Shown: piece after piece, positions 11,896-64,000 of the stretch
Numbering within the stretch: position 1 is the stretch's first letter
Layout: each line of letters starts with the position of its first letter
NCBI GenBank assembly: GCA_916048095.2
Contig: CAJZIA020000003.1
Coordinates: 619,001-683,000 of the forward strand
Direction of reading: 5' to 3'
DNA from: Sacculina carcini
Lineage: Eukaryota; Arthropoda; Thecostraca; Sacculinidae
Length of the DNA stretch: 64,000 nt
Position numbers and translations under genes: made by a program
The notes under the pieces: generated by a model
Seen by the model: only the letters and a program-made list of their open reading frames with translations
Told to the model about the DNA's origin: nothing
Database searches by the model: none

Positions 11896-11944
11896 TACGA
11901 CTCTAACACATCTATGCTCTACACACAAATAATCGAAATAAATT

Positions 11945-13012
11945 GGATGAATAAAATAAAATAAATAAAATAAATAAAATAGAGAAAATAAAGAAAATAA
12001 AGAAAATAAAGAAAATAAAGAAAATAAAGAAAATAAAGAAAATAAAGAAAATAAAGAAAATAAAGAAAATAAAGAAAATAAAGAAAATAAAGAAAATAAA
12101 GAAAATAAAGAAAATAAAGAAAATAAAGAAAATAAAGAAAATAAAGAAAATAAAGAAAATAAAGAAAATAAAGAAAATAAAGAAAATAAAGAAAATAAAG
12201 AAAATAAAGAAAATAAAGAAAATAAAGAAAATAAAGAAAATAAAGAAAATAAAGAAAATAAAGAAAATAAAGAAAATAAAGAAAATAAAGAAAATAAAGA
12301 AAATAAAGAAAATAAAGAAAATAAAGAAAATAAAGAAAATAAAGAAAATAAAGAAAATATAGATGACGTCAGCAGTGCTGACTCAGCACTGCATTCAATG
12401 TCACCTTGGCTGATGCAATGCACACACCATGATACCGCGCTGACGTCTGCGCATGCGCAGTACATCAAACACATTCCCCGCCAGTCTGGCGCCATCTCAA
12501 GGTAACCTCGGATGGTGCACAATCACGCACCGCGTACGTGATACCGCGGTGACGTCTGCGCATGCGCAGTTTGAACAAATCATTGTTATAGACATCTTCT
12601 ACCATCCACCGTCTATTCACCCGTTTAAACACACTTGATAAATATTTTTCAAATTAATTTCATTATATTTTTTAATCAACTTGTTTTAACACAACTAATT
12701 ATCATAACCTAATATAATAAACATTAATATACGAAATACGTGCGCCACAATTGTATCATGTGCGCCACAAGTGTCTCACAATTCTATGAATTAATTTAAT
12801 TCTCAAACTAATTTAAAAAACATTAATATACCTAATACGCGCGCCACAATTGTATCATGTGCGTCACAAGTGCTTCACAATTCTCTAAATTTATTTAATT
12901 CATAGAATTGTGAGACACTTGTGGCGCACATGATACAATTGTGGCGCACGTATTTCGTATATTAATGTTTATTATATTAGGTTATGATAATTAGTTGTGT
13001 TAAAACAAGTTA
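11945..13012 (+). repeat. Satellite unit 1 (rearranged block with fold-back)
   Basis: Tract 11945-12358, mostly GAAAATAAA. The block 12359-13012 begins as a type A block, but from about 12896 to 13012 it carries an inverted copy of its own 12682-12800 segment, making a fold-back in place of the tRNA-like end. The next tract starts directly after. Confidence 0.9.
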
Positions 13013-14096
13013 AGAAAATAAAGAAAATAAAGAAAATAAAGAAAATAAAGAAAATAAAGAAAATAAAGAAAATAAAGAAAATAAAGAAAATAAAGAAAAT
13101 AAAGAAAATAAAGAAAATAAAGAAAATAAAGAAAATAAAGAAAATAAAGAAAATAAAGAAAATAAAGAAAATAAAGAAAATAAAGAAAATAAATAAAATA
13201 AAGAAAATAAAGAAAATAAAGAAAATAAAGAAAATAAAGAAAATAAAGAAAATAAAGAAAATAAAGAAAATAAAGAAAATAAAGAAAATAAAGAAAATAA
13301 AGAAAATAAAGGAAATAAAGAAAATAAAGAAAATAAAGAAAATAAAGAAAATAAGGAAAATAAAGAAAATAAAGAAAATATAGATGACGTCAGCAGTGCT
13401 GACTCAGCACTGCATTCAAGGTCACCTTGGCTGATGCAATGCACACACCATGATACCGCGCTGACGTCTGCGCATGCGCAGTACATCAAACACATTCCCC
13501 GCCAGTCTGGCGCCATCTCAATGTAACCTTGGATGGTGCACAATCACGCACCGCGTACGTGATACCGCGCTGACGTCTGCGCATGCGCAGTTTGAACAAA
13601 TCATTGTTATAGACATCTTCTACCATCCACCGTCTATTCACCCGTTTAAACACACTTGATAAATATTTTTCAAATTAATTTCATTATATTTTTTAATCAA
13701 CTTGTTTTAACACAACTAATTATCATAACCTAATATAATAAACATTAATATACGAAATACGCGCGCCACAATTGTATCATGTGCATTTGTCTCACAACTC
13801 TAAATTAATTTAGTTAGCATAACCAAATATAATAAACATTAATATATCTAATACGTGCGCCACAATTGTATCATGTGCGCCACAAGTATCTCACAATTCT
13901 ATATATTAATTGTACACTCGTGCTTGCGCACTATATATACCACATATAAACCATCTCTCTTGAACATCTACAATGGCCGAACCGCGTAAGACTCTGCTCG
14001 AACCCCGAGGACCTCGGTTCGAATCCCAGCCAGGTAATAACTTTCTTCACTCAACACTAAACTCTACACACAAATAATCGAAATAAATTGGATGAA
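13013..14096 (+). repeat. Satellite unit 2 (short type A block)
   Basis: Tract 13013-13378; block 13379-14096 (about 718 bp), with fewer subrepeats than a full type A block. tRNA-like B box at 14016-14026. Confidence 0.9.
13972..14034 (+). other. tRNA-like segment (class-II Ser/Leu type), representative copy
   Basis: TGGCCGAACCGCGTAAGAC resembles the A box and D arm of tRNA-Ser/Leu, and GGTTCGAATCC (14016-14026) is an exact Pol III B box, about 30 bp apart. The T arm mostly pairs, but the would-be acceptor strands do not, so this is a tRNA-derived relic rather than a tRNA gene. B boxes of the other plus-strand copies end at 15015, 17419, 18931, 37416, 38739, 40225, 42223, 44231, 45637, 46752, 47984, 49282, 50433, 51629, 52411, 53591, 54391, 56945, 58249 and 60093. 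Inverted copies lie at 61604-61614 and 63279-63289. Both Polinton terminal repeats carry one too (20940-20950 inverted, 36850-36860). Confidence 0.7.
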
Positions 14097-15085
14097 TAAA
14101 ATAAAATAAATAAAATAAATAAAATAAATAAAATAGAGAAAATAAAGAAAATAAAGAAAATAAAGAAAATAAAGAAAATAAAGAAAATAAAGAAAATAAA
14201 GAAAATAAAGAAAATAAAGAAAATAAAGAAAATAAAGAAAATAAAGAAAATAAAGAAAATAAAGAAAATAAAGAAAATAAAGAAAATAAAGAAAATAAAG
14301 AAAATAAAGAAAATAAAGAAAATAAAGAAAATAAAGAAAATAAAGAAAATAAAGAAAATAAAGAAAATATAGATGACGTCAGCAGTGCTGACTCAGCACT
14401 GCATTCAAGGTCACCTTGGCTGATGCAATGCACACACCATGATACCGCGCTGACGTCTGCGCATGCGCAGTACATCAAACACATTCCCCGCCAGTCTGGC
14501 GCCATCTCAATGTAACCTTGGATGGTGCACAATCACGCACCGCGTACGTGATACCGCGCTGACGTCTGCGCATGCGCAGTTTGAACAAATCATTGTTATA
14601 GACATCTTCTACCATCCACCGTCTATTCACCCGTTTAAACACACTTGATAAATATTTTTCAAATTAATTTCATTATATTTTTAAATCAACTTGTTTTAAC
14701 ACAACTAATTATCATAACCTAATATAATAAACATTAATATACGAAATACGCGCGCCACAATTGTATGATGTGCATTTGTCTCACAACTCTAAATTAATTT
14801 AGTTAGCATAACCAAATATAATAAACATTAATATATCTAATACGTGCGCCACAATTGTATCATGTGCGCCACAAGTATCTCACAATCCTATATATTAATT
14901 GTACACTCGTGCTTGCGCACTATATATACCACATATAAACCATCTCTCTTGAACATCTACAATGGCCGAACCGCGTAAGACTCTGCTCGAACCCCGAGGA
15001 CCTCGGTTCGAATCCCAGCCAGGTAATAACTTTCTTCACTCAACACTAAACTCTACACACAAATAATCGAAATAAATTGGATGAA
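14097..15085 (+). repeat. Satellite unit 3 (short type A block)
   Basis: Tract 14097-14368; block 14369-15085, nearly identical to the unit 2 block, pointing to a recent duplication of the pair. B box at 15005-15015. Confidence 0.9.
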
Positions 15086-17489
15086 TAAAATAAAATAAAT
15101 AAAATAAATAAAATAGAGAAAATAAAGAAAATAAAGAAAATAAAGAAAATAAAGAAAATAAAGAAAATAAAGAAAATAAAGAAAATAAAGAAAATAAAGA
15201 AAATAAAGAAAATAAAGAAAATAAAGAAAATAAAGAAAATAAAGAAAATAAAGAAAATAAAGAAAATAAAGAAAATAAAGAAAATAAAGAAAATAAAGAA
15301 AATAAAGAAAATAAAGAAAATAAAGAAAATAAAGAAAATAAAGAAAATAAAGAAAATAAAGAAAATAAAGAAAATAAAGAAAATAAAGAAAATAAAGAAA
15401 ATAAAGAAAATAAAGAAAATAAAGAAAATAAAGAAAATAAAGAAAATAAAGAAAATAAAGAAAATAAAGAAAATAAAGAAAATAAAGAAAATAAAGAAAA
15501 TAAAGAAAATAAAGAAAATAAAGAAAATAAAGAAAATAAAGAAAATAAAGAAAATAAAGAAAATAAAGAAAATAAAGAAAATAAAGAAAATAAAGAAAAT
15601 AAATAAAATAAATAAAATAAATAAAATAAATAAAATAAATAAAATAAATAAAATAAATAAAATAAATAAAATAAATAAAATAAATAAAATAAATAAAATA
15701 AATAAAATAAATAAAATAAATAAAATAAATAAAAAAAATAAAATAAATAAAATAAATAAAATAAATAAAATAAATAAAATAAATAAAATAAATAAAATAA
15801 ATAAAATAAATAAAATAAATAAAATAAATAAAATAAATAAAATAAATAAAATAAAGAAAATAAAGAAAATAAAGAAAATAAAGAAAATAAAGAAAATAAA
15901 GAAAATAAAGAAAATAAAGAAAATAAAGAAAATAAAGAAAATAAAGAAAATAAAGAAAATAAAGAAAATAAATAAAATAAATAAAATAAATAAAATAAAT
16001 AAAATAAATAAAATAAATAAAATAAATAAAATAAATAAAATAAATAAAATAAATAAAATAAAGAAAATAAATAAAATAAATAAAATAAATAAAATAAATA
16101 AAATAAATAAAATAAATAAAATAAATAAAATAAATAAAATAAATAAAATAAATAAAATAAATAAAATAAATAAAATAAATAAAATAAATAAAATAAATAA
16201 AATAAATAAAATAAATAAAATATAGAAAATATAGAAAATATAGAAAATATAGAAAATATAGAAAATATAGAAAATATAGAAAATAAATAAAATAAATAAA
16301 ATAAAGAAAATAAAGAAAATAAAGAAAATAAAGAAAATAAAGAAAATAAAGAAAATAAAGAAAATAAAGAAAATAAAGAAAATAAAGAAAATAAAGAAAA
16401 TAAAGAAAATATAGAAAATATAGAAAATAAAGAAAATAAAGAAAATAAAGAAAATATAGAAAATAAAGAAAATAAAGAAAATAAAGAAAATAAAGAAAAT
16501 AAAGAAAATAAAGAAAATAAAGAAAATAAAGAAAATAAAGAAAATAAAGAAAATAAAGAAAATAAAGAAAATATAGATGACGTCAGCAGTGCTGACTCAG
16601 CACTGCATTCAAGGTCACCTTGGCTGATGCAATGCACACACCATGATACCGCGCTGACGTCTGCGCATGCGCAGTACATCAAACACATTCCCCGCCAGTC
16701 TGGCGCCATCTCAAGGTAACCTTGGATGGTGCACAATCACGCACCGCGTACGTGATACCGCGCTGACGTCTGCGCATGCGCAGTTTGAACAAATCATTGT
16801 TATAGACATCTTCTACCATCCACCGTCTATTCACCCGTTTAAACACACTTGATAAATATTTTTCAAATTAATTTCATTATATTTTTAAATCAACTTGTTT
16901 TAACACAACTAATTATCATAACCTAATATAACAAACATTAATATACGAAATACGTGCGCCACAATTATATCATGTGCGCCACAAGTGTATCACAATTCTA
17001 TGAATTAATTTAATTCTCAAACTAATTTAAAAAACATTAATATACCTAATACGCGCGCCACAATTGTATCATGTGCGTCACAAATGTTTCACAATTCTCT
17101 AAATTTATTTAATTAGCATAACATAATATAATAAACATTAATATACCAAATACGCGCGCCACAATTGTATCATGTGCATTTGTCTCACAACTCTAAATTA
17201 ATTTAGTTAGCAAAACCAAATATAATAAACATTAATATATCTAATACGTGCGCCACAATTGTATCATGTGCGCCACAAGTATCTCACAATTCTATATATT
17301 AATTGTACACTCGTGCTTGCGCACTATATATACCACATATAAACCATCTCTCTTGAACATCTACAATGGCCGAACCGCGTAAGACTCTGCTCGAACCCCG
17401 AGGACCTCGGTTCGAATCCCAGCCAGGTAATAACTTTCTTCACTCAACACTAAACTCTACACACAAATAATCGAAATAAATTGGATGAA
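15086..17489 (+). repeat. Satellite unit 4 (full type A block, long mosaic tract)
   Basis: Tract 15086-16571 alternates long runs of GAAAATAAA and TAAAATAAA with a short GAAAATATA run near 16220-16285. Block 16572-17489 is a full 918-bp type A block. B box at 17409-17419. Confidence 0.9.
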
Positions 17490-19002
17490 TAAAATAAAAT
17501 AAAGAAAATAAAGAAAATAAAGAAAATAAAGAAAATAAAGAAAATAAAGAAAATAAAGAAAATAAAGAAAATAAAGAAAATAAAGAAAATAAATAAAATA
17601 AATAAAATAAATAAAATAAATAAAATAAAGAAAATAAAGAAAATAAATAAAATAAATAAAATAAATAAAATAAAGAAAATAAAGAAAATAAAGAAAATAA
17701 AGAAAATAAAGAAAATAAAGAAAATAAAGAAAATAAATAAAATAAATAAAATAAATAAAATAAATAAAATAAAGAAAATAAAGAAAATAAAGAAAATAAA
17801 TAAAATAAATAAAATAAATAAAATAAATAAAATAAATAAAATAAATAAAATAAATAAAATAAATAAAATAAATAAAATAAATAAAATAAATAAAATAAAT
17901 AAAATAAATAAAATAAATAAAATAAAGAAAATGAAGAAAATGAAGAAAATGAAGAAAATGAAGAAAATAAATAAAATAAATAAAATAAATAAAATAAATA
18001 AAATAAATAAAATAAAGAAAATAAATAAAATAAATAAAATAAATAAAATAAAGAAAATAAAGAAAATAAAGAAAATAAAGAAAATAAAGAAAATAAAGAA
18101 AATAAAGAAAATAAAGAAAATAAAGAAAATAAAGAAAATAAAGAAAATAAAGAAAATAAAGAAAATAAAGAAAATAAAGAAAATAAAGAAAATAAAGAAA
18201 ATAAAGAAAATAAAGAAAATAAAGAAAATAAAGAAAATAAAGAAAATAAAGAAAATAAAGAAAATAAAGAAAATAAAGAAAATAAAGAAAATAAAGAAAA
18301 TAAAGAAAATAAAGAAAATAAAGAAAATAAAGAAAATAAAGAAAAATAAAGAAAATAAAGAAAATAAAGAAAATAAAGAAAATAAAGAAAATAAAGAAAA
18401 TAAAGAAAATAAAGAAAATAAAGAAAATAAAGAAAATAAAGAAAATAAAGAAAATAAAGAAAATAAAGAAAATAAAGAAAATAAAGAAAATAAAGAAAAT
18501 AAAGAAAATAAAGAAAATAAAGAAAATAAAGAAAATAAAGAAAATAACTTAATATACCTAATACGCGCGCCACAATTGTATCATGTGCGTCACAAGTGTT
18601 TCACAATTCTCTAAATTTATTTAATTAGCATAACATAATATAATAAACATTAATATACCAAATACGCGCGCCACAATTGTATCATGTGCATTTGTCTCAC
18701 AACTCTAAATTAATTTAGTTAGCATAACCAAATATAATAAACATTAATATATCTAATACGTGCGCCACAATTGTATCATGTGCGCCACAAGTATCTCACA
18801 ATTCTATATATTAATTGTACACTCGTGCTTGCGCACTATATATACCACATATAAACCATCTCTCTTGAACATCTACAATGGCCGAACCGCGTAAGACTCT
18901 GCTCGAACCCCGAGGACCTCGGTTCGAATCCCAGCCAGGTAATAACTTTCTTCACTCAACACTAAACTCTACACACAAATAATCGAAATAAATTGGATGA
19001 AT
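17490..19002 (+). repeat. Satellite unit 5 (type B block)
   Basis: Tract 17490-18546 with a GAAAATGAA cluster near 17928-17960. Block 18547-19002 is type B: it starts at ACTTAATATACC and lacks the CRE/MARE/NRF1 module and first subrepeats. It keeps CACTCGTGC before the tRNA-like segment (B box 18921-18931). Confidence 0.9.
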
Positions 19003-20444
19003 AAAATAAAATAAATAAAATAAAGAAAATAAAGAAAATAAAGAAAATAAAGAAAATAAAGAAAATAAAGAAAATAAAGAAAATAACGAAAATAAATAAA
19101 ATAAATAAAATAAATAAAATAAATAAAATAAAGAAAATGAATAAAATAAAGAAAATAAATAAAATAAATAAAATAAATAAAATAAATAAAATAAATAAAA
19201 TAAATAAAATAAATAAAATAAATAAAATAAATAAAATAAATAAAATAAATAAAATAAATAAAATAAATAAAATAAAGAAAATGAAGAAAATGAAGAAAAT
19301 GAAGAAAATAAATAAAATAAATAAAATAAATAAAATAAATAAAATAAATAAAATAAAGAAAATAAATAAAATAAATAAAATAAATAAAATAAATAAAATA
19401 AAGAAAATAAAGAAAATAAAGAAAATAAAGAAAATAAAGAAAATAAAGAAAATAAAGAAAATAAAGAAAATAAAGAAAATAAAGAAAATAAAGAAAATAA
19501 AGAAAATAAAGAAAATAAAGAAAATAAAGAAAATAAAGAAAATAAAGAAAATAAAGAAAATAAAGAAAATAAAGAAAATAAAGAAAATAAAGAAAATAAA
19601 GAAAATAAAGAAAATAAAGAAAATAAAGAAAATAAAGAAAATAAAGAAAATAAAGAAAATAAAGAAAATAAAGAAAATATAGATGACGTCAGCAGTGCTG
19701 ACTCAGCACTGCATTCAAGGTCACCTTGGCTGATGCAATGCACACACCATGATACCGCGCTGACGTCTGCGCATGCGCAGTACATCAAACACATTCCCCG
19801 CCAGTCTGGCGCCATCTCAAGGTAACCTTGGATGGCGCACAATCACGCACCGCGTACGTGATACCGCGCTGACGTCTGCGCATGCGCAGTTTGAACAAAT
19901 CATTGTTATAGACATCTTCTACCATCCACCGTCTATTCACCCGTTTAAACACACTTGATAAATATTTTTCAAATTAATTTCATTATATTTTTAAATCAAC
20001 TTGTTTTAACACAACTAATTATCATAACCTAATATAACAAACATTAATATACGAAATAAGTGCGCCACAATTATATCATGTGCGCCACAAGTGTATCACA
20101 ATTCTATGAATTAATTTAATTCTCAAACTAATTTAAAAAACATTAATATACCTAATACGCGCGCCACAATTGTATCATGTGCGTCACAAATGTTTCACAA
20201 TTCTCTAAATTTATTTAATTAGCATAACATAATATAATAAACATTAATATACCAAATACGCGCGCCACAATTGTATCATGTGCATTTGTCTCACAACTCT
20301 AAATTAATTTAGTTAGCAAAACCAAATATAATAAACATTAATATATCTAATACGTGCGCCACAATTGTATCATGTGCGCCACAAGTATCTCACAATTCTA
20401 TATATTAATTGTACACTCGTGCTTGCGCACTATATATACCACAT
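19003..20444 (+). repeat. Satellite unit 6, first part (type A block split by Polinton)
   Basis: Tract 19003-19678; block part 19679-20444 (766 bp) ends at TATACCACAT, where the Polinton is inserted. The remaining 152 bp, after the duplicated CACAT, lie at 37336-37487; together they give 918 bp, the length of a full type A block. Confidence 0.95.
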
Positions 20445-21640
20445 AGTAGTAGGCCGGTACACTTTGTGACATTTGCACAAGTGGGGGAAGTGGGGAGGGG
20501 GAGGGGGGGTTTTTGCACGCTTTAGGCCCCGCCCCCTTATGACGTCACAGGTTTTTGCACGGTTTAGGCCCCGCCCCCTTATGACGTCATTTTTGCACAT
20601 GTGGCTCCCTCTATACCTGACCGGTGGCGCCCTCTATACCGGAAGTGGCGCCCTCCATACTTGACAAGTAGCGCCGCCTATACCTGACCAGTGGCGCCGC
20701 CTATACCTGACCTGACCGGAAGTGGTGCCATCTATGGTGAGCGTCGGTACCTGTGAACGCAGCAGCGACATCTATACATTTTTGAATCAATTTATTTATT
20801 TATTAATTCATTTATTTATTTTATTGATTTACTTTATTTATTTAATTTAATTTACTTATTTTATTTAATTCATCTTATTTATTTCGATTATTTGTGTGTA
20901 GAGTGTAGTGTCGAGTGAAGAAAGTTTTTTACCTGGCTGGGATTCGAACCGAGGTCCTCGGGGTTCGAGCAGAGTCTTACGCAGTTCGGCTATTGTAGAG
21001 GTTCAAGAGGATGGTTTAAATGTGGTATATATAGTGCGCAAGCACGAGTGTACAATTAAATTAATTTCGAATTGTGAGACACTTGTGACGCACATGATAC
21101 AATTATGGCGCAGGTATTAATGTTTATTATATTTGGTTATGTTAATTAATCAATTTATAGAATTGTGAGACACTTGTGGCGCACATGATAAAATTGTGAC
21201 GCGCATATTAATGTTTATTATATTTGGTTATGTTAATTAATTAATTTATAGAATTGTGAGACAAATGTGGCGCGCATGATACAATTATGGCGCACGTATT
21301 AATGTTTATTATATTTGGTTATGAGAATTAAATTAATTTCGAATTGTGAGACACTTGTGACGCACATGATACATTAGTGGCGCGCGTATTTGGTATATTA
21401 TATTAGGTTATGGTAATTAATTGTGTTAAAACAAGTTGATTTAAAAATATTTATCAAGTGTGTTTAAACTGCGCATGCGCAGACGTCAGCACGGTATCAT
21501 GATGTGTGTATTGCATTATCCAAGGTGACCTTGAGATGGCGCCAGACTGGCGGGGAATGTGTTTGATGTACTGCGCATGCGCAGACGTCAGCACGGTATC
21601 ATGATGTGTGCATGTTTTTGATATACTGCGCATGCGCTGA
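20445..21640 (+). repeat. Polinton left terminal inverted repeat
   Basis: Order from the tip: GC-rich tip to about 20780, AT-rich tract (20787-20890), tRNA-like segment in inverted orientation, a TATATATAGTGCGCAAGCAC segment, four copies of the roughly 90-bp subrepeat (about 21060-21415), then NRF1-like palindromes at 21470-21481 and 21572-21583. The mirror copy is at about 36000-37330. The part inside the GC-rich tip is the source sequence of the surrounding satellite. Confidence 0.93.
20508..20608. promoter_or_regulatory. Duplicated GC-box/CRE segment in the Polinton tip
   Basis: Two direct copies of a segment of about 45 bp, each containing CCCCGCCCCCTTATGACGTCA (GC box next to the CRE palindrome TGACGTCA) followed by TTTTTGCAC. 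The same pair appears inverted at about 37180-37260 and, slightly diverged, at about 9765-9835. Downstream, to about 20730, five or six degenerate units contain GGCGCC with flanking TATACCTGACC. Regulatory or terminal-protein binding roles are possible; only the repeats are seen. Confidence 0.5.
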
Positions 21641-21680
21641 CGTCATCATCCAGCGTATATAAATTGTCGAGTCAGTGCGC
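21627..21680 (+). promoter_or_regulatory. Promoter of the Polinton replication genes
   Basis: An NRF1-like TGCGCATGCGCT (21627-21638) runs into TGACGTCA (21638-21645), followed by TATATAAA (21656-21663). A TCAGTG initiator-like hexamer lies at 21672-21677 but is only about 18 bp from the TATA box, so the true start may lie further downstream. Two more NRF1 palindromes are upstream at 21470 and 21572. Confidence 0.6.
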
Positions 21681-21783
21681 ATCTATCATTTCGTTTCATC
21701 GTTTGTCGGGTGCGGGTCGGTCTTTACTGCTCCATTGTTTTTTCGTGTTTGTTATATTTGCTGCCATATTGTTTCGGAGAGAG

Positions 21784-22146
21784 ATGGCTGCAAAGCATCG
21801 GTTGAGTGATGAGGAAGACTGTTCGCCAATGAAGCGTGGAGACACTGCCGAGGTGAGCAATATCCGATGTGTTTTGCAAGACGTGAGCTCAAGGTACGTT
21901 CGGCGATTCAGAGCTCAAGGAAAATCGTACCACCTGGAGCTCAACTTTACGGAGCCCGACAACGTCATTGGAGCAATTGCTTCAATTGAGGCGACCATCG
22001 ACGCTGTGGTGGGTCAGGTGCTCCAAGGAGTGGACCCTGACGATTATGTGGGCATTACTCTGCGCAACGCCGACTACAAGCAGGCCGCATACCTGGTGCC
22101 TCGGCGCGTCAGAGATTTCGACGCGTCACTTTTGTCAAAAAGGTAA
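21784..22146 (+). CDS. Polinton ORF upstream of the polymerase (replication-protein N-terminal-type domain)
   Basis: Begins at the first ATG after the terminal-repeat promoter (MAAKHRLSDEED); 120 aa. The middle, around LEGVDPDDYVG-like LQGVDPDDYVGITLRNADY and VPRRVRDF, resembles the N-terminal domain commonly found ahead of Polinton/adintovirus polymerases in invertebrates (family recognition from memory). The gap to the next open frame is under 100 bp and looks like a short intron. The two may therefore belong to one transcript, but the sequence alone does not prove that. It has an acidic N terminus and no membrane segment. Confidence 0.7.
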   Translation: MAAKHRLSDEEDCSPMKRGDTAEVSNIRCVLQDVSSRYVRRFRAQGKSYHLELNFTEPDNVIGAIASIEATIDAVVGQVLQGVDPDDYVGITLRNADYKQAAYLVPRRVRDFDASLLSKR

Positions 22147-22225
22147 GCGGTTTTGTATTATTATTTAGTTTTATTTACTAGATTTTATTTACGAGATTAA
22201 ATAATCAAATTAAAAATGAATTTGG

Positions 22226-25813: not shown

Positions 25814-25930
25814 CAAATATTTTGTTTTTGCCCATGATTTGTGTATAAATATAAAATGATGTATAAACGTGTGTCTGTATACATGTCAACATCATATCGT
25901 TGGTGCTTCTCACCGTACTAGCTTTGTTTC

Positions 25931-25966: not shown

Positions 25967-25983
25967 AGTCATACTCGGTGGCC

Positions 25984-26665: not shown

Positions 26666-26677
26666 TCATTTGCCAAA

Positions 26678-51698: not shown

Positions 51699-52481
51699 AA
51701 TAAATAAAATAAATAAAATAAATAAAATAAATAAAATAAATAAAATAAATAAAATAAAGAAAATAAAGAAAATAAAGAAAATAAAGAAAATAAAGAAAAT
51801 AAAGAAAATAAAGAAAATAAAGAAAATGAAGAAAATGAAGAAAATGAATAAAATAAAGAAAATAAAAAAAATAAAGAAAATAAAGAAAATAAAGAAAATA
51901 AAGAAAATAAAGAAAATAAAGAAAATAAAGAAAATAAAGAAAATAAAGAAAATAAAGAAAATAAAGAAAATAAAGAAAATAAAGAAAATAAAGAAAATAA
52001 AGAAAATAAGGAAAATAAAGAAAATAACTTAATATACCTAATACGCGCGCCACAATTGTATCATGTGCGTCACAAGTGTTTCACAATTCTCTAAATTTAT
52101 TTAATTAGCATAACATAATATAATAAACATTAATATACCAAATACGCGCGCCACAATTGTATCATGTGCATTTGTCTCACAACTCTAAATTAATTTAGTT
52201 AGCATAACCAAATATAATAAACATTAATATATCTAATACGTGCGCCACAATTGTATCATGTGCGCCACAAGTATCTCACAATTCTATATATTAATTGTAC
52301 AATAGTGCTTGCGCACTATATATACCACATATAAACCATCTCTCTTGAACATCTACAATGGCCGAACCGCGTAAGACTCTGCTCGAACCCCGAGGACCTC
52401 GGTTCGAATCCCAGCCAGGTAATAACTTTCTTCACTCAACACTAAACTCTACACACAAATAATCGAAATAAATTGGATGAA
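51699..52481 (+). repeat. Satellite unit 17 (type B, CAATAG)
   Basis: Short tract 51699-52026 with unit-12-type order; block 52027-52481; B box 52401-52411. Confidence 0.9.
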
Positions 52482-53663
52482 ATAAATAAAATAAATAAAA
52501 TAAATAAAATAAATAAAATAAATAAAATAAATAAAATAAATAAAATAAAGAAAATAAAGAAAATAAAGAAAATAAAGAAAATAAAGAAAATAAAGAAAAT
52601 AAAGAAAATAAAGAAAATAAAGAAAATAAAGAAAATGAAGAGAATGAAGAAAATGAATAAAATAAAGAAAATAAAGAAAATAAAGAAAATAAAGAAAATA
52701 AAGAAAATAAAGAAAATAAAGAAAATAAAGAAAATAAAGAAAATATAGATGACGTCAGCAGTGCTGACTCAGCACTGCATTCAAGGTCACCTTGGCTGAT
52801 GCAATGCACACACCATGATACCGCGCTGACGTCTGCGCATGCGCAGTACATCAAACACATTCCCCGCCAGTCTGGCGCCATCTCAAGGTAACCTTGGATG
52901 GCGCACAATCACGCACCGCGTACGTGATACCGCGCTGACGTCTGCGCATGCGCAGTTTGAACAAATCATTGTTATAGACATCTTCTACCATCCACCGTCT
53001 ATTCACCCGTTTAAACACACTTGATAAATATTTTTCAAATTAATTTCATTATATTTTTAAATCAACTTGTTTTAACACAACTAATTATCATAACCTAATA
53101 TAATAAACATTAATATACGAAATACGTGCGCCACAATTATATCATGTGCGCCACAAGTGTCTCACAATTCTATGAATTAATTTAATTCTCAAACTAATTT
53201 AAAAAACATTAACATACCTAATACGCGCGCCACAATTGTATCATGTGCGTCACAAGTGTTTCACAATTCTCTAAATTTATTTAATTAGCATAACATAATA
53301 TAATAAACATTAATATACCAAATACGCGCGCCACAATTGTATCATGTGCATTTGTCTCACAACTCTAAATTAATTTAGTTAGCAAAACCAAATATAATAA
53401 ACATTAATATATCTAATACGTGCGCCACAATTGTATCATGTGCGCCACAAGTATCTCACAATTCTATATATTAATTGTACACTCGTGCTTGCGCACTATA
53501 TATACCACATATAAACCATCTCTCTTGAACATCTACAATGGCCGAACCGCGTAAGACTCTGCTCGAACCCCGAGGACCTCGGTTCGAATCCCAGCCAGGT
53601 AATAACTTTCTTCACTCAACACTAAACTCTACACACAAATAATCGAAATAAATTGGATGAATT
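52482..53663 (+). repeat. Satellite unit 18 (type A)
   Basis: Shortest tract, 52482-52743, with a GAGAATGAA variant; block 52744-53663; B box 53581-53591. Confidence 0.9.
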
Positions 53664-54461
53664 AAATAAAATAAATAAAATAAATAAAATAAATAAAATA
53701 AATAAAATAAATAAAATAAAGAAAATAAAGAAAATAAAGAAAATAAAGAAAATAAAGAAAATAAAGAAAATAAAGAAAATAAAGAAAATAAAGAAAATGA
53801 AGAAAATGAAGAAAATGAATAAAATAAAGAAAATAAAGAAAATAAAGAAAATAAAGAAAATAAAGAAAATAAAGAAAATAAAGAAAATAAAGAAAATAAA
53901 GAAAATAAAGAAAATAAAGAAAATAAAGAAAATAAAGAAAATAAAGAAAATAAAGAAAATAAAGAAAATAAAGAAAATAAAGAAAATAAGGAAAATAAAG
54001 AAAATAACTTAATATACCTAATACGCGCGCCACAATTGTATCATGTGCGTCACAAGTGTTTCACAATTCTCTAAATTTATTTAATTAGCATAACATAATA
54101 TAATAAACATTAATATACCAAATACGCGCGCCACAATTGTATCATGTGCATTTGTCTCACAACTCTAAATTAATTTAGTTAGCATAACCAAATATAATAA
54201 ACATTAATATATCTAATACGTGCGCCACAATTGTATCATGTGCGCCACAAGTATCTCACAATTCTATATATTAATTGTACAATAGTGCTTGCGCACTATA
54301 TATACCACATATAAACCATCTCTCTTGAACATCTACAATGGCCGAACCGCGTAAGACTCTGCTCGAACCCCGAGGACCTCGGTTCGAATCCCAGCCAGGT
54401 AATAACTTTCTTCACTCAACACTAAACTCTACACACAAATAATCGAAATAAATTGGATGAA
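53664..54461 (+). repeat. Satellite unit 19 (type B, CAATAG)
   Basis: Tract 53664-54006, unit-12-type order; block 54007-54461; B box 54381-54391. Confidence 0.9.
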
Positions 54462-57014
54462 ATAAATAAAATAAATAAAATAAATAAAATAAATAAAATA
54501 AATAAAATAAATAAAATAAATAAAATAAATAAAATAAATAAAATAAAGAAAATAAAGAAAATAAAGAAAATAAAGAAAATAAAGAAAATAAAGAAAATAA
54601 AGAAAATAAAGAAAATAAAGAAAATGAAGAGAATGAAGAGAATGAAGAAAATGAATAAAATAAAGAAAATAAAGAAAATAAAGAAAATAAAGAAAATAAA
54701 GAAAATAAAGAAAATAAAGAAAATAAAGAAAATAAAGAAAATAAAGAAAATAAAGAAAATAAAGAAAATAAAGAAAATAAAGAAAATAAAGAAAATAAAG
54801 AAAATAAAGAAAATAAAGAAAATAAAGAAAATGAAGAAAATGAAGAAAATGAATAAAATAAAGAAAATAAAGAAAATAAAGAAAATAAAGAAAATAAAGA
54901 AAATAAAGAAAATAAAGAAAATAAAGAAAATAAAGAAAATAAAGAAAATAAAGAAAATAAAGAAAATAAAGAAAATAAAGAAAATAAAGAAAATAAAGAA
55001 AATTAAGAAAATAAAGAAAATAAAGAAAATAAAGAAAATAAAGAAAATAAAGAAAATAAAGAAAATAAAGAAAGTAAAGAAAATAAAGAAAGTAAAGAAA
55101 ATAAAGAAAATAAAGAAAATAAAGAAAATAAAGAAAATAAAGAAAATAAAGAAAATAAAGAAAATAAAGAAAATAAAGAAAATAAAGAAAATAAAGAAAA
55201 TAAAGAAAATAAAGAAAATAAAGAAAATAAAGAAAATAAAGAAAATAAAGAAAATAAAGAAAATAAAGAAAATAAAGAAAATAAAGAAAATAAAGAAAAT
55301 AAAGAAAATAAAGAAAATAAAGAAAATAAAGAAAATAAAGAAAATAAAGAAAATAAAGAAAATAAAGAAAATAAAGAAAATAAAGAAAATAAAGAAAATA
55401 CAGAAAATAAAGAAAATAAAGAAAATAAAGAAAATAAAGAAAATAAAGAAAATAAAGAAAATAAAGAAAATAAAGAAAATAAAGAAAATAAAGAAAATAA
55501 AGAAAATAAAGAAAATAAAGAAAATAAAGAAAATAAAGAAAATAAAGAAAATAAAGAAAATAAAGAAAATAAAGAAAATAAAGAAAATAAAGAAAATAAA
55601 GAAAATAAAGAAAATAAAGAAAATAAAGAAAATAAAGAAAATAAAGAAAATAAAGAAAATATGAAAATAAAGAAAATAAAGAAAATAAAGAAAATAAAGA
55701 AAATAAAGAAAATAAAGAAAATAAAGAAAATAAAGAAAATAAAGAAAATAAAGAAAATAAAGAAAATAAAGAAAATACAGAAAATAAAGAAAATAAAGAA
55801 AATAAAGAAAATAAAGAAAATAAAGAAAATAAAGAAAATAAAGAAAATAAAGAAAATAAAGAAAATAAAGAAAATAAAGAAAATAAAGAAAATAAAGAAA
55901 ATAAAGAAAATAAAGAAAATAAAGAAAATAAAGAAAATAAAGAAAATAAAGAAAATAAAGAAAATAAAGAAAATAAAGAAAATAAAGAAAATAAAGAAAA
56001 TAAAGAAAATAAAGAAAATAAAGAAAATAAAGAAAATAAAGAAAATAAAGAAAATAAAGAAAATAAAGAAAATAAAGAAAATAAAGAAAATAAAGAAAAT
56101 AAAGAAAATAAAGAAAATAAAGAAAATAAAGAAAATAAAGAAAATAAAGAAAATAAAGAAAATAAAGAAAATAAAGAAAATAAAGAAAATAAAGAAAATA
56201 AAGAAAATAAAGAAAATAAAGAAAATAAAGAAAATAAAGAAAATAAAGAAAGTAAAGAAAATAAAGAAAGTAAAGAAAATAAAGAAAATAAAGAAAATAA
56301 AGAAAATAAAGAAAATAAAGAAAATAAAGAAAATAAAGAAAATAAAGAAAATAAAGAAAATAAAGAAAATAAAGAAAATAAAGAAAGTAAAGAAAATAAA
56401 GAAAATAAAGAAAATAAAGAAAATAAAGAAAATAAAGAAAATAAAGAAAATAAAGAAAATAAAGAAAATAAAGAAAATAAAGAAAATAAAGAAAATAAAG
56501 AAAATAAAGAAAATAAAGAAAATAAAGAAAATAAAGAAAATAAGGAAAATAAAGAAAATAACTTAATATACCTAATACGCGCGCCACAATTGTATCATGT
56601 GCGTCACAAGTGTTTCACAATTCTCTAAATTTATTTAATTAGCATAACATAATATAATAAACATTAATATACCAAATACGCGCGCCACAATTGTATCATG
56701 TGCATTTGTCTCACAACTCTAAATTAATTTAGTTAGCATAACCAAATATAATAAACATTAATATATCTAATACGTGCGCCACAATTGTATCATGTGCGCC
56801 ACAAGTATCTCACAATTCTATATATTAATTGTACAATAGTGCTTGCGCACTATATATACCACATATAAACCATCTCTCTTGAACATCTACAATGGCCGAA
56901 CCGCGTAAGACTCTGCTCGAACCCCGAGGACCTCGGTTCGAATCCCAGCCAGGTAATAACTTTCTTCACTCAACACTAAACTCTACACACAAATAATCGA
57001 AATAAATTGGATGA
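54462..57014 (+). repeat. Satellite unit 20 (type B, longest tract)
   Basis: Tract 54462-56561, about 2.1 kb, with internal repeats of the variant order (two GAAAATGAA clusters, two pairs of GAAAGTAAA, two lone GAAAATACA about 370 bp apart), showing segmental duplication inside the tract. Block 56562-57014; B box 56935-56945. Confidence 0.9.
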
Positions 57015-58318
57015 AATAAATAAAATAAATAAAATAAATAAAATAAATAAAATAAATAAAATAAATAAAATAAATAAAATAAATAAAATAAAGAAAATAA
57101 AGAAAATAAAGAAAATAAAGAAAATAAAGAAAATAAAGAAAATAAAGAAAATAAAGAAAATAAAGAAAATGAAGAAAATGAAGAAAATGAATAAAATGAA
57201 TAAAATAAAGAAAATAAAGAAAATAAAGAAAATAAAGAAAATAAAGAAAATAAAGAAAATAAAGAAAATAAAGAAAATAAAGAAAATAAAGAAAATAAAG
57301 AAAATAAAGAAAATAAAGAAAATAAAGAAAATAAAGAAAATAAAGAAAATTAAGAAAATTAAGAAAATTAAGAAAATTAAGAAAATAAAGAAAATAAAGA
57401 AAATAAAGAAAATAAAGAAAATAAAGAAAATAAAGAAAATAAAGAAAATAAAGAAAATAAAGAAAATAAAGAAAATAAAGAAAATAAAGAAAATAAAGAA
57501 AATAAAGAAAATAAAGAAAATAAAGAAAATAAAGAAAATAAAGAAAATAAAGAAAATAAAGAAAATAAAGAAAATAAAGAAAATAAAGAAAATAAAGAAA
57601 ATAAAGAAAATAAAGAAAATAAAGAAAATAAAGAAAATAAAGAAAATAAAGAAAATAAAGAAAATAAAGAAAATAAAGAAAATAAAGAAAATGAAGAAAA
57701 TAAAGAAAATAAAGAAAATAAAGAAAATAAAGAAAATAAAGAAAATAAAGAAAATAAAGAAAATAAAGAAAATAAAGAAAATAAAGAAAATAAAGAAAAT
57801 AAAGAAAATAAAGAAAATAAAGAAAATAAAGAAAATAAAGAAAATAAGGAAAATAAAGAAAATAACTTAATATACCTAATACGCGCGCCACAATTGTATC
57901 ATGTGCGTCACAAGTGTTTCACAATTCTCTAAATTTATTTAATTAGCATAACATAATATAATAAACATTAATATACCAAATACGCGCGCCACAATTGTAT
58001 CATGTGCATTTGTCTCACAACTCTAAATTAATTTAGTTAGCATAACCAAATATAATAAACATTAATATATCTAATACGTGCGCCACAATTGTATCATGTG
58101 CGCCACAAGTATCTCACAATTCTATATATTAATTGTACAATAGTGCTTGCGCACTATATATACCACATATAAACCATCTCTCTTGAACATCTACAATGGC
58201 CGAACCGCGTAAGACTCTGCTCGAACCCCGAGGACCTCGGTTCGAATCCCAGCCAGGTAATAACTTTCTTCACTCAACACTAAACTCTACACACAAATAA
58301 TCGAAATAAATTGGATGA
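57015..58318 (+). repeat. Satellite unit 21 (type B, CAATAG)
   Basis: Tract 57015-57864 with a run of four GAAAATTAA near 57346-57380; block 57865-58318; B box 58239-58249. Confidence 0.9.
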
Positions 58319-60165
58319 AATAAATAAAATAAATAAAATAAATAAAATAAATAAAATAAATAAAATAAATAAAATAAATAAAATAAATAAAATAAATAAA
58401 ATAAATAAAATAAAGAAAATAAAGAAAATAAAGAAAATAAAGAAAATAAAGAAAATAAAGAAAATAAAGAAAATAAAGAAAATAAAGAAAATGAAGAAAA
58501 TGAAGAAAATGAAGAAAATGAATAAAATAAAGAAAATAAAGAAAATAAAGAAAATAAAGAAAATAAAGAAAATAAAGAAAATAAAGAAAATAAAGAAAAT
58601 AAAGAAAATAAAGAAAATAAAGAAAATAAAGAAAATAAAGAAAATAAAGAAAATAAAGAAAATAAAGAAAATAAAGAAAATAAAGAAAATAAAGAAAATA
58701 AAGAAAATAAAGAAAATAAAGAAAATAAAGAAAATAAAGAAAATAAAGAAAATAAAGAAAGTAAAGAAAATAAAGAAAATAAAGAAAATAAAGAAAATAA
58801 AGAAAATAAAGAAAATAAAGAAAATAAAGAAAATAAAGAAAATAAAGAAAATAAAGAAAATAAAGAAAATAAAGAAAATAAAGAAAATAAAGAAAATAAA
58901 GAAAATAAAGAAAATAAAGAAAATAAAGAAAATAAAGAAAATAAAGAAAATAAAGAAAATAAAGAAAATAAAGAAAATAAAGAAAATAAAGAAAATAAAG
59001 AAAATAAAGAAAATAAAGAAAATAAAGAAAATAAAGAAAATAAAGAAAATAAAGAAAATAAAGAAAATAAAGAAAATAAAGAAAATAAAGAAAATAAAGA
59101 AAATAAAGAAAATAAAGAAAATAAAGAAAATAAAGAAAATAAAGAAAATAAAGAAAATAAAGAAAATAAAGAAAATAAAGAAAATAAAGAAAATAAAGAA
59201 AATAAAGAAAATAAAGAAAATAAAGAAAATAAAGAAAATAAAGAAAATAAAGAAAATAAAGAAAATAAAGAAAATAAAGAAAATAAAGAAAATAAAGAAA
59301 ATAAAGAAAATAAAGAAAATAAAGAAAATAAAGAAAGTAAAGAAAATAAAGAAAATAAAGAAAATAAAGAAAATAAAGAAAATAAAGAAAATAAAGAAAA
59401 TAAAGAAAATAAAGAAAATAAAGAAAATAAAGAAAATAAAGAAAGTAAAGAAAATAAAGAAAATAAAGAAAATAAAGAAAATAAAGAAAATAAAGAAAAT
59501 AAAGAAAATAAAGAAAATAAAGAAAATAAAGAAAATAAAGAAAATAAAGAAAATAAAGAAAATAAAGAAAATAAAGAAAATAAAGAAAGTAAAGAAAATA
59601 AAGAAAATAAAGAAAATAAAGAAAATAAAGAAAATCAAGAAAATCAAGAAAATCAAGAAAATCAAGAAAATAAACAAAATAAAGAAAATAAAGAAAATAA
59701 AGAAAATAACTTAATATACCTAATACGCGCGCCACAATTGTATCATGTGCGTCACAAGTGTTTCACAATTCTCTAAATTTATTTAATTAGCATAACATAA
59801 TATAATAAACATTAATATACCAAATACGCGCGCCACAATTGTATCATGTGCATTTGTCTCACAACTCTAAATTAATTTAGTTAGCATAACCAAATATAAT
59901 AAACATTAATATATCTAATACGTGCGCCACAATTGTATCATGTGCGCCACAAGTATCTCACAATTCTATATATTAATTGTACAATAGTGCTTGCGCACTA
60001 TATATACCACATATAAACCATCTCTCTTGAACATCTACAATGGCCGAACCGCGTAAGACTCTGCTCGAACCCCGAGGACCTCGGTTCGAATCCCAGCCAG
60101 GTAATAACTTTCTTCACTCAACACTAAACTCTACACACAAATAATCGAAATAAATTGGATGAATA
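58319..60165 (+). repeat. Satellite unit 22 (type B, CAATAG)
   Basis: Tract 58319-59708, about 1.4 kb, with four GAAAGTAAA and a GAAAATCAA run near the end; block 59709-60165; B box 60083-60093. Confidence 0.9.
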
Positions 60166-61531
60166 AAATAAAATAAATAAAATAAAGAAAATAAAGAAAA
60201 TAAAGAAAATAAAGAAAATAAAGAAAATAAAGAAAATAAAGAAAATAAAGAAAATAAAGAAAATAAAGAAAATAAATAAAATGAAGAAAATGAATAAAAT
60301 AAACAAAATAAAGAAAATAAAGAAAATAAAGAAAATAAAGAAAATAAAGAAAATAAAGAAAATAAAGAAAATAAAGAAAATAAAGAAAATAAAGAAAATA
60401 AAGAAAATAAAGAAAATAAAGAAAATAAAGAAAATAAAGAAAATAAAGAAAATAAAGAAAATAAAGAAAATAAAGAAAATAAATAAAATGAAGAAAATGA
60501 ATAAAATAAAGAAAATAAAGAAAATAAAGAAAATAAAGAAAATAAAGAAAATAAAGAAAATAAAGAAAATAAAGAAAATAAAGAAAATAAAGAAAATAAA
60601 GAAAATAAAGAAAATAAAGAAAATAAAGAAAATAAAGAAAATAAAGAAAATAAAGAAAATAAAGAAAATAAAGAAAATAAAGAAAATAAAGAAAATAAAG
60701 AAAATAAAGAAAATAAAGAAAATAAAGAAAATAAAGAAAATAAAGAAAATAAAGAAAATAAAGAAAATAAAGAAAATAAAGAAAATAAAGAAAATCAAGA
60801 AAATAAAGAAAATAAAGAAAATAAAGAAAATAAAGAAAATAAAGAAAATAAAGAAAATAAAGAAAATAAAGAAAATAAAGAAAATAAAGAAAATAAAGAA
60901 AATAAAGAAAATAAAGAAAATAAAGAAAATAAAGAAAATAAAGAAAATAAAGAAAATAAAGAAAATAAAGAAAATAAAGAAAATAAAGAAAATAAAGAAA
61001 ATAAAGAAAATAAAGAAAATAAAGAAAATAAAGAAAATAAAGAAAATAAAGAAAATCAAGAAAATAAAGAAAATAAATAAAATGAAGAAAATGAATAAAA
61101 TAAAGAAAATAAAGAAAATAAAGAAAATAAAGAAAATAAAGAAAATAAAGAAAATAAAGAAAATAAAGAAAATAAAGAAAATAAAGAAAATAAAGAAAAT
61201 AAAGAAAATAAAGAAAATAAAGAAAATAAAGAAGATTTTCTTTATTTTCTTTATTTTCTTTATTTTCTTTATTTTCTTTATTTTCTTTATTTTCTTTATT
61301 TTCTTTATTTTCTTTATTTTCTTTATTTTATTTATTTTCTTTATTCTCTTTATTTTATTTATTTTATTTATTTTCTTCATTTTATTTATTTTCTTTATTT
61401 TCTTTATTTTCTTTATTTTCTTTATTTTCTTTATTTTCTTTATTTTCTTTATTTTCTTTATTTTCTTTATTTTCTTTATTTTCTTTATTTTCTTTATTTT
61501 CTTTATTTTATTTATTTTATTTATTTTATTT
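60166..61531. repeat. Tract 23 with orientation switch
   Basis: GAAAATAAA-type tract to about 61233, where AAAGAAGATTTTCTTT marks a switch to its complement (TTTTCTTTA-type) until 61531. Both arms are long, so the region is a large near-perfect inverted repeat. The left arm has three TAAAATGAA/GAAAATGAA clusters (near 60277, 60484 and 61080). Confidence 0.93.
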
Positions 61532-62451
61532 TATTCATCCAATTTATTTCGATTATTTGTGTGTAGAGTTTAGTGTTGAGTGAAGAAAGTTATTACCTGG
61601 CTGGGATTCGAACCGAGGTCCTCGGGGTTCGAGCAGAGTCTTACGCGGTTCGGCCATTGTGGATGTTCAATTGAGATGGTTTATATGTGGTATATATAGT
61701 GCGCAAGCACGAGTGTACAATTAATATATAGAATTGTGAGATACTTGTGGCGCACATGATACAATTGTGGCGCACGTATTAGATATATTAATGTTTATTA
61801 TATTTGGTTATGCTAACTAAATTAATTTAGAGTTGTGAGACGAATGCACATGATACAATTGTGGCGCGCGTACTTGGTATATTAATGTTTATTATATTAT
61901 GTTATGCTAATTAAATAAATTTAGAGAATTGTGAAACACTTGTGACGCACATGATACAATTGTGGCGCGCGTATTAGGTATATTAATGTTTTTTAAATTA
62001 GTTTGAGAATTAAATTAATTCATAGAATTGTGAGACACTTGTGGCGCACATGATACAATTGTGGCGCACGTATTTCGTATATTAATGTTTATTATATTAG
62101 GTTATGATAATTAGTTGTGTTAAAACAAGTTGATTTAAAAATATAATGAAATTAATTTGAAAAATATTTATCAAGTGTGTTTAAACGGGTGAATAGACGG
62201 TGGATGGTAGAAGATGTCTATAACAATGATTTGTTCAAACTGCGCATGCGCAGACGTCAGCGCGGTATCACGTACGCGGTGCGTGATTGTGCACCATCCA
62301 AGGTTACCTTGAGATGGCGCCAGACTGGCGGGGAATGTGTTTGATGTACTGCGCATGCGCAGACGTCAGCGCGGTATCATGGTGTGTGCATTGCATCAGC
62401 CAAGGTGACCTTGAATGCAGTGCTGAGTCAGCACTGCTGACGTCATCTATA
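61532..62451 (-). repeat. Satellite unit 24, inverted (type A)
   Basis: Reverse-complement type A block with tRNA-like B box at 61604-61614, subrepeats, NRF1 and CRE motifs. It carries small differences from the forward blocks (for example around the CATTGTGGATG segment), so it belongs to a separate lineage. Confidence 0.92.
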
Positions 62452-63208
62452 TTTTCTTTATTTTCTTTATTTTCTTTATTTTCTTTATTTTCTTTATTTT
62501 CTTTATTTTCTTTATTTTCTTTATTTTCTTTATTTTCTTTATTTTCTTTATTTTCTTTATTTTCTTTATTTTCTTTATTTTATTTATTTTCTTTATTTTA
62601 TTTATTTTATTTATTTTATTTATTTTATTTATTTTATTTATTTACTTTATTTACTTTATTTACTTTATTTACTTTATTTACTTTATTTACTTTATTTACT
62701 TTATTTACTTTATTTACTTTATTTACTTTATTTTCTTTATTTTCTTTATTTTCTTTATTTTCTTTATTTTCTTTATTTTCTTTATTTTCTTTATTTTCTT
62801 TATTTTCTTTATTTTCTTTATTTTCTTTATTTTCTTTATTTTCTTTATTTTCTTTATTTTCTTTATTTTCTTTATTTTCTTTATTTTCTTTATTTTCTTT
62901 ATTTTCTTTATTTTCTTTATTTTCTTTATTTTCTTTATTTTCTTTATTTTCTTTATTTTCTTTATTTTCTTTATTTTATTTATTTTCTTTATTTTCTTTA
63001 TTTTCTTTATTTTATTTATTTTATTTATTTTATTTATTCTCTTTATTTTATTTATTTTATTTATTTTCTTCATTTTCTTCATTTTCTTTATTTTCTTTAT
63101 TTTCTTTATTTTCTTTATTTTCTTTATTTTCTTTATTTTCTTTATTTTCTTTATTTTCTTTATTTTCTTTATTTTCTTTATTTTATTTATTTTATTTATT
63201 TTATTTTA
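62452..63208 (-). repeat. Inverted 9-bp tract with TAC variant
   Basis: TTTTCTTTA-type tract with a run of about ten TTTACTTTA-type units near 62640-62730 that occurs in no forward tract, again separating the inverted lineage. Confidence 0.92.
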
Positions 63209-64000
63209 TTCATCCAATTTATTTCGATTATTTGTGTGTAGAGTTTAGTGTTGAGTGAAGAAAGTTATTACCTGGCTGGGATTCGAACCGAGGTCCTCGG
63301 GGTTCGAGCAGAGTCTTACGCGGTTCGGCCATTGTGGATGTTCAAGTGAGATGGTTTATATGTGGTATATATAGTGCGCAAGCACGAGTGTACAATTAAT
63401 ATATAGAATTGTGAGATACTTGTGGCGCACATGATACAATTGTGGCGCACGTATTAGATATATTAATGTTTATTATATTTGGTTATGCTAACTAAATTAA
63501 TTTAGAGTTGTGAGACGAATGCACATGATACAATTGTGGCGCGCGTATTTGGTATATTAATGTTTATTATATTATGTTATGCTAATTAAATAAATTTAGA
63601 GAATTGTGAAACACTTGTGACGCACATGATACAATTGTGGCGCGCGTATTAGGTATATTAATGTTTTTTAAATTAGTTTGAGAATTAAATTAATTCATAG
63701 AATTGTGAGACACTTGTGGCGCACATGATACAATTGTGGCGCACGTATTTCGTATATTAATGTTTATTATATTAGGTTATGATAATTAGTTGTGTTAAAA
63801 CAAGTTGATTTAAAAATATAATGAAATTAATTTGAAAAATATTTATCAAGTGTGTTTAAACGGGTGAATAGACGGTGGATGGTAGAAGATGTCTATAACA
63901 ATGATTTGTTCAAACTGCGCATGCGCAGACGTCAGCGCGGTATCACGTACGCGGTGCGTGATTGTGCACCATCCAAGGTTACCTTGAGATGGCGCCAGAC
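63209..64000 (-). repeat. Satellite unit 25, inverted, cut by the window end
   Basis: Second inverted type A block, nearly identical to 61532-62451; B box 63279-63289. The window ends within its NRF1/CATCTC region. Confidence 0.92.

Follow-up and report, generated by a model that had tools for sequence, protein, structure and literature searches.

Satellite DNA of Sacculina carcini with a probable origin in the terminal repeats of a Polinton

The window analysed here, a 64,000-nucleotide stretch of the Sacculina carcini genome, contains long tandem arrays of a satellite family that very probably descends from the terminal repeats (TIRs) of Polintons by the stepwise route proposed below. Because of their homology, satellite and Polinton TIR have a common origin. 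Descent from TIR to satellite is the best-supported direction; it is favoured because no Polinton-type row falls within the satellite clade of our tree, because the parts of a full unit occur in Polinton TIRs in the same order, because a 9-bp tract expands in ordinary TIRs, and because a decayed Polinton end on contig C19 has an array and has lost its tip without tandem duplication.

Tandem blocks that are 82-84% identical to the TIR of Polinton A fill positions 11917-64000 except for Polinton A itself (20445-37330), which a preliminary description of the window had counted as satellite. BLAST of both TIRs against the window returned satellite-block matches with E-values down to 0, the longer ones at 82-84% identity over about 540-700 bp. 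The sequence and order that this description had reported as shared are thus confirmed, but the homology it assigned to the right TIR is equally a match to the left. Block parts stand in TIR order and, as previously described, without the GC-rich tip, which within the window is confined to the two ends of Polinton A and to remnant B; 9-bp arrays lie between the blocks. The satellite is arranged as follows:
11917..20444, plus strand: satellite block 1, made of truncated, full and medium units oriented as the right TIR is, with 9-bp arrays
37331..61234, plus strand: satellite block 2, a head-to-tail series of full and medium units
61235..64000, minus strand: satellite block 3, inverted, with a head-to-head switch within a 9-bp array
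The orientation of the satellite flips at 61234/61235, and an inverted stretch is present near 12911-13011 within satellite block 1.

Units are ordered as a CRE/NRF1 segment, subrepeats of about 90-99 bp, CACTCGTGCTTGCGCAC, a B-box segment, AATAATCGAAATA and a 9-bp array, with a core of 913 bp in full units and 462 bp in medium units. Core identity to the reference is 98.5-100% for most units and 93.6-93.8% for two with internal deletions. Representative features are:
41382..42294, plus strand: reference full unit core (CRE/NRF1 segment, subrepeats, motif, B-box segment, AATAATCGAAATA)
16578..17490, plus strand: example full unit core of 913 bp, 99.5% identical to core 41382-42294
54002..54461, plus strand: example medium unit with a core of about 462 bp, 98.7% identical to the core and beginning inside the second subrepeat
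42295..43388, plus strand: example 9-bp array, mostly AAATAAAAT beside the unit, AAAGAAAAT farther out, with AAAATATAGATG as its end at the next unit
The exact unit start of the medium example occurs 31 times, on contig C32 only. Across arrays AAATAAAAT tends to adjoin the unit and AAAGAAAAT to lie farther out, with exceptions (e.g. 15736-16221). The satellite junction between AAAATATAGATG and ACGTCAGC carries TATAGATG in 14 of 14 cases found, and in the 46 TIR contexts found the same string stands at the tip's inner edge, both searches having required part of it; as a landmark it is only suggestive, because TATAGA also occurs as an array variant (locus L004). The tRNA-like segment of the preliminary description amounts to box-A/box-B-like strings alone. 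ARAGORN reported 0 tRNAs across the window and Rfam gave no match at E<=1 for 42080-42320, leaving a tRNA gene or a tRNA-derived SINE unsupported.

Two Polinton-related elements are present in the window:
9698..11916, plus strand: remnant B, a Polinton left tip and TIR fused to a polB fragment
20440..20444, plus strand: target duplication CACAT, left copy
20445..37330, plus strand: Polinton A, inserted within a satellite unit, with polB, A32-like ATPase, rve integrase and C5-like protease
20445..21613, minus strand: left TIR of Polinton A with its GC-rich tip outermost; two overlapping pieces are 90.8% and 94.1% identical to the right TIR
36016..37330, plus strand: right TIR of Polinton A
37030..37330, plus strand: GC-rich tip of the TIR
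37331..37335, plus strand: target duplication CACAT, right copy, where the interrupted satellite unit picks up again

Element A is a Polinton/Maverick, encoding a viral/organellar type B polymerase (DNA_pol_B_2, E 3.4e-47, ORF 22220-25813), a retroviral-type integrase (rve, E 2.7e-13, 27546-28382), a packaging ATPase (Pox_A32, E 2.2e-07) and an adenovirus-type protease (Peptidase_C5, E 1.7e-06), the last two with whole-protein scores exceeding the curated cut-offs, between long TIRs and a short target duplication. Major and minor capsid proteins were sought in its 519-aa and 461-aa ORFs (29594 and 31424), which gave no Pfam match. Polinton target duplications measure 5-6 bp, and an exact 5-bp duplication was found in 8 of 11 element pairs, Polinton A among them. 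Identity of 98-99% in polB among copies of the Polinton A subfamily suggests that it was recently active.

Satellite adjoins remnant B in the orientation of that element's missing right TIR and flanks Polinton A, as it would if either remnant B, through its own right TIR, or Polinton A had given rise to the arrays of the window. Such a local origin is very improbable. Polinton A is not the satellite source, because it was inserted with a 5-bp duplication into an existing unit, the last of satellite block 1 (19684-20444). The left TIR of remnant B has the Polinton-type states CATTTA and GAACCTC, not the satellite states, and its junction with the satellite was found once, whereas C1 and C29 both carry units that have the satellite-only states. 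Both elements were rejected as local sources on these grounds. Remnant B, whose polB fragment is recognisable (DNA_pol_B_2, E 6.3e-17, ORF 10798-11877), had also been invoked against capture of a satellite by the element; the argument carries little weight, given a host flank that recurs in 13 other fetched loci and a unique satellite junction.

The satellite extends well beyond the window, with 2435 occurrences of a satellite-type string in the genome and 2720 occurrences of the 17-base motif in 264 Mb, versus 0 for the reversed pattern. Among 257 Gb of prokaryote contigs the motif was found in 36 stretches, about chance level (~30 expected by our own arithmetic). One match to it was seen in a viral contig. 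Among the matches listed, satellite falls on at least seven contigs, as runs on C1, C10, C19, C25, C29 and C32 and singly on C11; sampling of units at fixed spacing gave three matches, all on C1. Mean p-distance is 0.015 among satellite units (35 units, three contigs) versus 0.045 among 39 Polinton-type copies. These are long head-to-tail arrays of homogenised units at several chromosomal sites, that is, satellite DNA, and their low diversity may reflect homogenisation rather than youth. The arrays are repetitive and on the 712-kb contig C32 satellite sits close to either end, which would suit an assembly in which arrays were mis-joined or inflated around collapsed Polinton ends, but such an artefact is extremely unlikely: units are of varied type, length and orientation, several long contigs have them in their interior with unit classes that differ, and the target duplication around Polinton A is exact.

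A tree of satellite units and TIRs was built from 74 of 75 copies of a 190-bp segment (one with N excluded), which gave 42 distinct rows once identical copies were merged. It covers copies in which at least 85% of the segment was matched, and so leaves out remnant B, truncated L072 and L100, and ten internally deleted loci on C32 (L047-L050, L052, L057, L058, L060, L062 and L064). The 15 distinct satellite rows (from C32, C1 and C29) form one clade (branch support 96/98) and none of the 27 distinct Polinton-type rows is nested in it, but the root is not fixed, a tree holding the satellite with the C23 copy not being rejected (p-AU 0.196). Three substitutions and a one-base deletion are present in 15/15 satellite rows and 0/27 others. 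The satellite has other states in common with both the C23 copy and the outer TIR of C19, and its inner segment of about 50 bp is shared with many other copies; its grouping with the C19 and C23 copies is supported at only 71/45. No single progenitor TIR was found, because the satellite is a mosaic, the closest Polinton copy changing from one stretch to another. In a six-row polB tree the C23 copy is basal (90/89, not starred), and the C19 Polinton, decayed in frame, groups with Polinton A (84/80). The C23 copy is only weakly indicated as the oldest branch: it is 88% identical over the protein, yet 97.0% identical to Polinton A in a 781-base polB piece, in which another copy is more divergent. 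A second Polinton subfamily (66% in polB) was tried as a TIR outgroup, but the five flanks fetched for three of its copies (L084, L085, L103-L105) gave no match to the TIR studied here.

Intermediate states occur among the Polintons themselves. In 46 TIRs with a tip edge the AT tract measures 41-539 bp, with perfect 9-bp runs of up to 178 bp; the table includes only TIRs with that edge within 900 bp, so longer tracts would escape it. The unit AAATAAAAT is native to these tip-bearing TIRs, and AAAGAAAAT was found in 0/46. The 9-bp array, previously described as a gain of the satellite, is instead an expansion of the TIR's own tract. The decayed Polinton end on C19 has a 1414-bp AAATAAAAT array, no tip and no tandem copy, and 760 bp read past the array gave no match to Polinton A.

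The opposite direction, in which a Polinton ancestor early on acquired an already existing satellite at its two ends and present TIRs descend from that satellite, is unlikely. The unfixed root would allow it, and the Polinton-type rows all lie on one side of the satellite branch, as a single early capture would give. Against it, every full-unit part found can be matched in Polinton TIRs; in the C23 copy the CRE/NRF1 segment, subrepeats, motif, tract and tip edge are all in place already, in the order of the satellite unit and TIR; tip-bearing TIRs have AAATAAAAT as a native unit, whereas AAAGAAAAT is absent from those tabulated; and capture is required at both element ends. The earlier proposal of a satellite from a Polinton end therefore stands as the better-supported direction, but Polinton A was not the source and the tree alone does not fix the root.

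For descent from TIR to satellite we propose six steps, in which the multiplying entity would be a sequence without mobility of its own. First, the AT-rich tract that separates AATAATCGAAATA from the GC-rich tip would grow by slippage of its own 9-bp unit AAATAAAAT; the expanded state is seen in tip-bearing TIRs. The tip, carrier of the transposition ends, would then be lost, and the end could therefore no longer move; the decayed C19 Polinton is in this tipless state, and the placing of the loss after expansion is our conjecture. Third, the outer edge of one tipless repeat would be joined to the inner CRE segment of another, perhaps by recombination or rolling-circle copying, giving the head-to-tail units whose junction is observed. 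Fourth, unequal exchange and conversion may have spread the units and the AAAGAAAAT array variant to several chromosomes, where arrays are now found. Fifth, deletions would have yielded the medium and minimal units and inversions would have flipped parts, both products being present. Last, Polinton A, of the presumably recently active subfamily, inserted in one unit, an event that the window records. A broader possibility, which we regard as doubtful, is that Polinton TIRs are serial satellite nurseries: the 9-bp tract might keep expanding in active elements and tipless ends be repeatedly born, one lineage having become a main structural satellite, an array on most chromosomes with the CRE/NRF1 promoter boxes of the element and a box-B string, perhaps with a putative centromeric or heterochromatin role.

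To our knowledge, intermediates of satellite birth are rarely seen together. Here intact TIRs with short tracts, TIRs that keep the tip but have expanded 9-bp tracts, a tipless end carrying a 1.4-kb array, and full arrays containing a derived array variant all occur in one genome; with these side by side, the order of satellite-birth events becomes testable. The findings suggest that the ends of a large virus-like DNA element can act as a seed of satellite DNA, and lay out possible steps from mobile element to bulk satellite DNA.

Transposon-derived satellites are known, among them those derived from the ends of foldback, MITE or LTR elements or from double TE insertions, in which ends or subrepeats are amplified in tandem; these derive from other element classes, whereas here the origin would be a Polinton TIR with an expanding AT tract. 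Tandem repeats similar to a Polinton, like the present satellite, include LmiSat34-299 of Locusta, similar to Polinton coding sequence (PMC4935994), and CgiSat52 of Crassostrea gigas, labelled DNA/Polinton, with a 1656-bp monomer and 17 monomers on one chromosome of one assembly and 6 on one of the other (PMC8268682). In contrast to the present satellite, the passages of those papers that concern them describe for neither an origin in a terminal repeat, with its direction or intermediates. In the Helitron-associated satellites of bivalves, as described in the relevant part of PMC8268682, a mobile element with a microsatellite and tandem repeats likewise gives rise to standalone arrays; those arrays lie inside rolling-circle elements, whereas the source here would be the terminal repeat of a self-synthesising element, with loss of the tip.

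BLAST of both Polinton A terminal repeats (TIRs) against the window, together with reading of the junctions, revealed satellite homology from about position 11917 to the window end; the preliminary description of 11917..64000 as satellite therefore holds except for 20445-37330, which is Polinton A itself. Full satellite units have a core of 913 bp, medium units (n=11) have a 462-bp core starting inside the second subrepeat, and 9-bp arrays stand between units, the longest being:

window:54462-56555, 9-bp array, ~2.1 kb

Identity to the reference full-unit core (window:41382-42294) is 98.5-100% for most units, 93.6-93.8% for two with internal deletions, and 97.9% and 99.0% for two pieces on contig C29. 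Satellite and TIR share 82-84% identity in the longer BLAST matches. The blocks had been described as lacking the GC-rich outermost TIR part (the tip), and this was borne out: within the window the tip is found only at both ends of Polinton A and in remnant B (window:9698-11916), and it is absent from all seven satellite loci read on C1 and C29.

Polinton A encodes polB, an A32-like ATPase, an rve integrase, and a C5-like protease. Its TIRs match in two overlapping pieces (90.8% and 94.1%), and its termini, AGTAGTAG...CTACTACT, are flanked on each side by CACAT. Because the element has these flanks and splits a single satellite unit in two, the satellite predates its insertion. Such 5-bp duplications are exact in 8 of the 11 element pairs examined, one of the others being a TA run and two mismatched. 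The Polinton A TIR lacks an inner segment of ~50 bp that the satellite has in common with Polinton C (C1) and other copies, as well as part of the AT stretch adjoining that segment. Polinton A ends, on its right side, 33 bp upstream of a satellite unit's box-A-like string; a 45-bp tandem repeat (window:34625-34959) is located near this end. Repeats of TIR origin host two Polinton insertions (window:20445-37330 and C19:2130049), which are too few cases for a claim of target preference.

The left TIR of remnant B carries Polinton-type, not satellite-type, states. The junction of its polB fragment with the satellite occurs once in the genome; its tip and host flank were found again in 13 other fetched loci, and 28 of the 30 exact genome-wide copies of its tip variant are on C32, a 712-kb contig with satellite near both its ends. 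One host flank common to 14 fetched sources including the window (e.g. L048-L064), together with this concentration on C32, suggests that a Polinton remnant was amplified segmentally on that contig. We read remnant B as one copy of the amplified remnant, abutting the satellite by chance.

The direction of descent was addressed with a tree of a 190-bp segment, in which 74 copies gave 42 distinct rows (15 satellite, 27 Polinton-type). The 15 satellite rows form one side of a branch (support 96/98), and three substitutions and a one-base deletion occur in 15/15 satellite rows vs 0/27 others. As to the Polinton repeats nested in satellite diversity for which the preliminary description had proposed to look, 0 of 27 Polinton-type rows fall inside the satellite group; the root is not fixed, since a tree constrained to group the satellite and the C23 copy could not be rejected (p-AU 0.196). 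The C23 copy, in which the TIR order is already present, is by protein identity the most divergent of the subfamily (88%) and is basal in a six-row polB tree (support 90/89, not starred); counting against a basal position, it is 97.0% identical to A in a 781-base polB piece where another copy is more divergent. The CRE stretches of the satellite differ in their nearest copy: C23 over 85 bp (96.5%), a C32 copy over 185 bp (94.1%), and Polinton C over 32 bp (96.9%). Some states link the satellite to the C23 copy and to the C19 copy, and the ~50-bp inner segment links it to others; from these sequence comparisons, the satellite appears to be a mosaic of Polinton states.

Tract, array, and tip data (labelled INTERMEDIATES) were compared using 46 TIRs with a tip edge within 900 bp. 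Their AT tracts are 41-539 bp long, one C36 copy has a perfect 9-bp run of 178 bp, two C32 copies have 18-bp-period runs of ~300 bp, and AAAGAAAAT is present in 0 of the 46. In satellite arrays AAATAAAAT mostly adjoins the unit and AAAGAAAAT lies further out, with exceptions; the outer edge is AAAATATAGATG followed by the next unit's ACGTCAGC in 14/14 cases. TATAGATG also sits at the inner tip edge in 46 TIR contexts, a likeness that is only suggestive as a trace of TIR origin because both search patterns hold part of the string and TATAGA is also an array variant.

A tipless Polinton end is found on C19. The Polinton there is decayed in frame (polB at 2147989-2150760, 91%, 7 stops), and the outer end of the adjoining TIR consists of a AAATAAAAT array of 1414 bp. 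Over the next 760 bases there is no match to Polinton A, and the tip is therefore missing; no tandem copy follows the array in the stretch read. A younger Polinton is inserted within this TIR, with a GTTAT duplication.

Tract expansion in TIRs, tip loss, tandem units, and an AAAG variant are all observed as states, and shortened satellite units, inversions, and a later Polinton insertion as products. Tract expansion would have come first, followed by tip loss and then tandem units, joined head-to-tail perhaps by recombination or rolling-circle copying; the satellite, presumably without mobility of its own, may have spread by unequal exchange and conversion.

In this genome (264 Mb, 43 contigs) the window occupies C32:619001-683000. 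Across all contigs, the 17-base TIR/satellite motif occurs 2720 times and a longer satellite-type string 2435 times.

Satellite locations, among the matches listed
C1, 8.905 to at least 8.974 Mb, plus then minus strand
C29, 3.114-3.244 Mb, plus strand
C29, from 3.430 Mb, minus strand
C32, near both ends
C19, 3.26-3.36 Mb
C10, 6.41 Mb
C25, 4.25-4.26 Mb
C11, one match

Exact matches to the full-unit junction number 86 on the plus strand (75 on C29, 11 in the window) and 169 on the minus strand, the 25 listed of the latter all being on C29; in contig order, the first full-unit junction match listed is on C29. All 31 exact copies of the medium-unit start are on C32, and all five C1 array loci read contain minimal units made of the motif-to-AATAATCG part and array only. 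By our own arithmetic, assuming a unit length between 0.7 kb (as on C1) and 1.6 kb (as in the window), the satellite totals very roughly 1.7-3.9 Mb, ~1% of the genome. In the C1, C19, and C29 arrays, plus-strand matches precede minus-strand ones among the matches listed, a layout that would suit arrays pointing toward one another from either side of a midpoint.

A further Polinton subfamily (C4, C10, C18, and others; 14 long matches with 66% polB identity) has equal stop numbers in many copies, and none of five flanks read has a DNA match to the TIR of A's subfamily. The window also contains a 347-aa stop-to-stop ORF without introns (4830-5873, minus strand) that spans most of a protein kinase domain, is most similar to atypical PKC (E 1.9e-115 with PKC iota chains), and is possibly a retrocopy or large exon.

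We make no claim of a first report; satellites with Polinton similarity are already present in two surveys, as CgiSat52, by label only (PMC8268682), and as LmiSat34-299, which has similarity to Polinton coding sequence (satellitome survey, PMC4935994).
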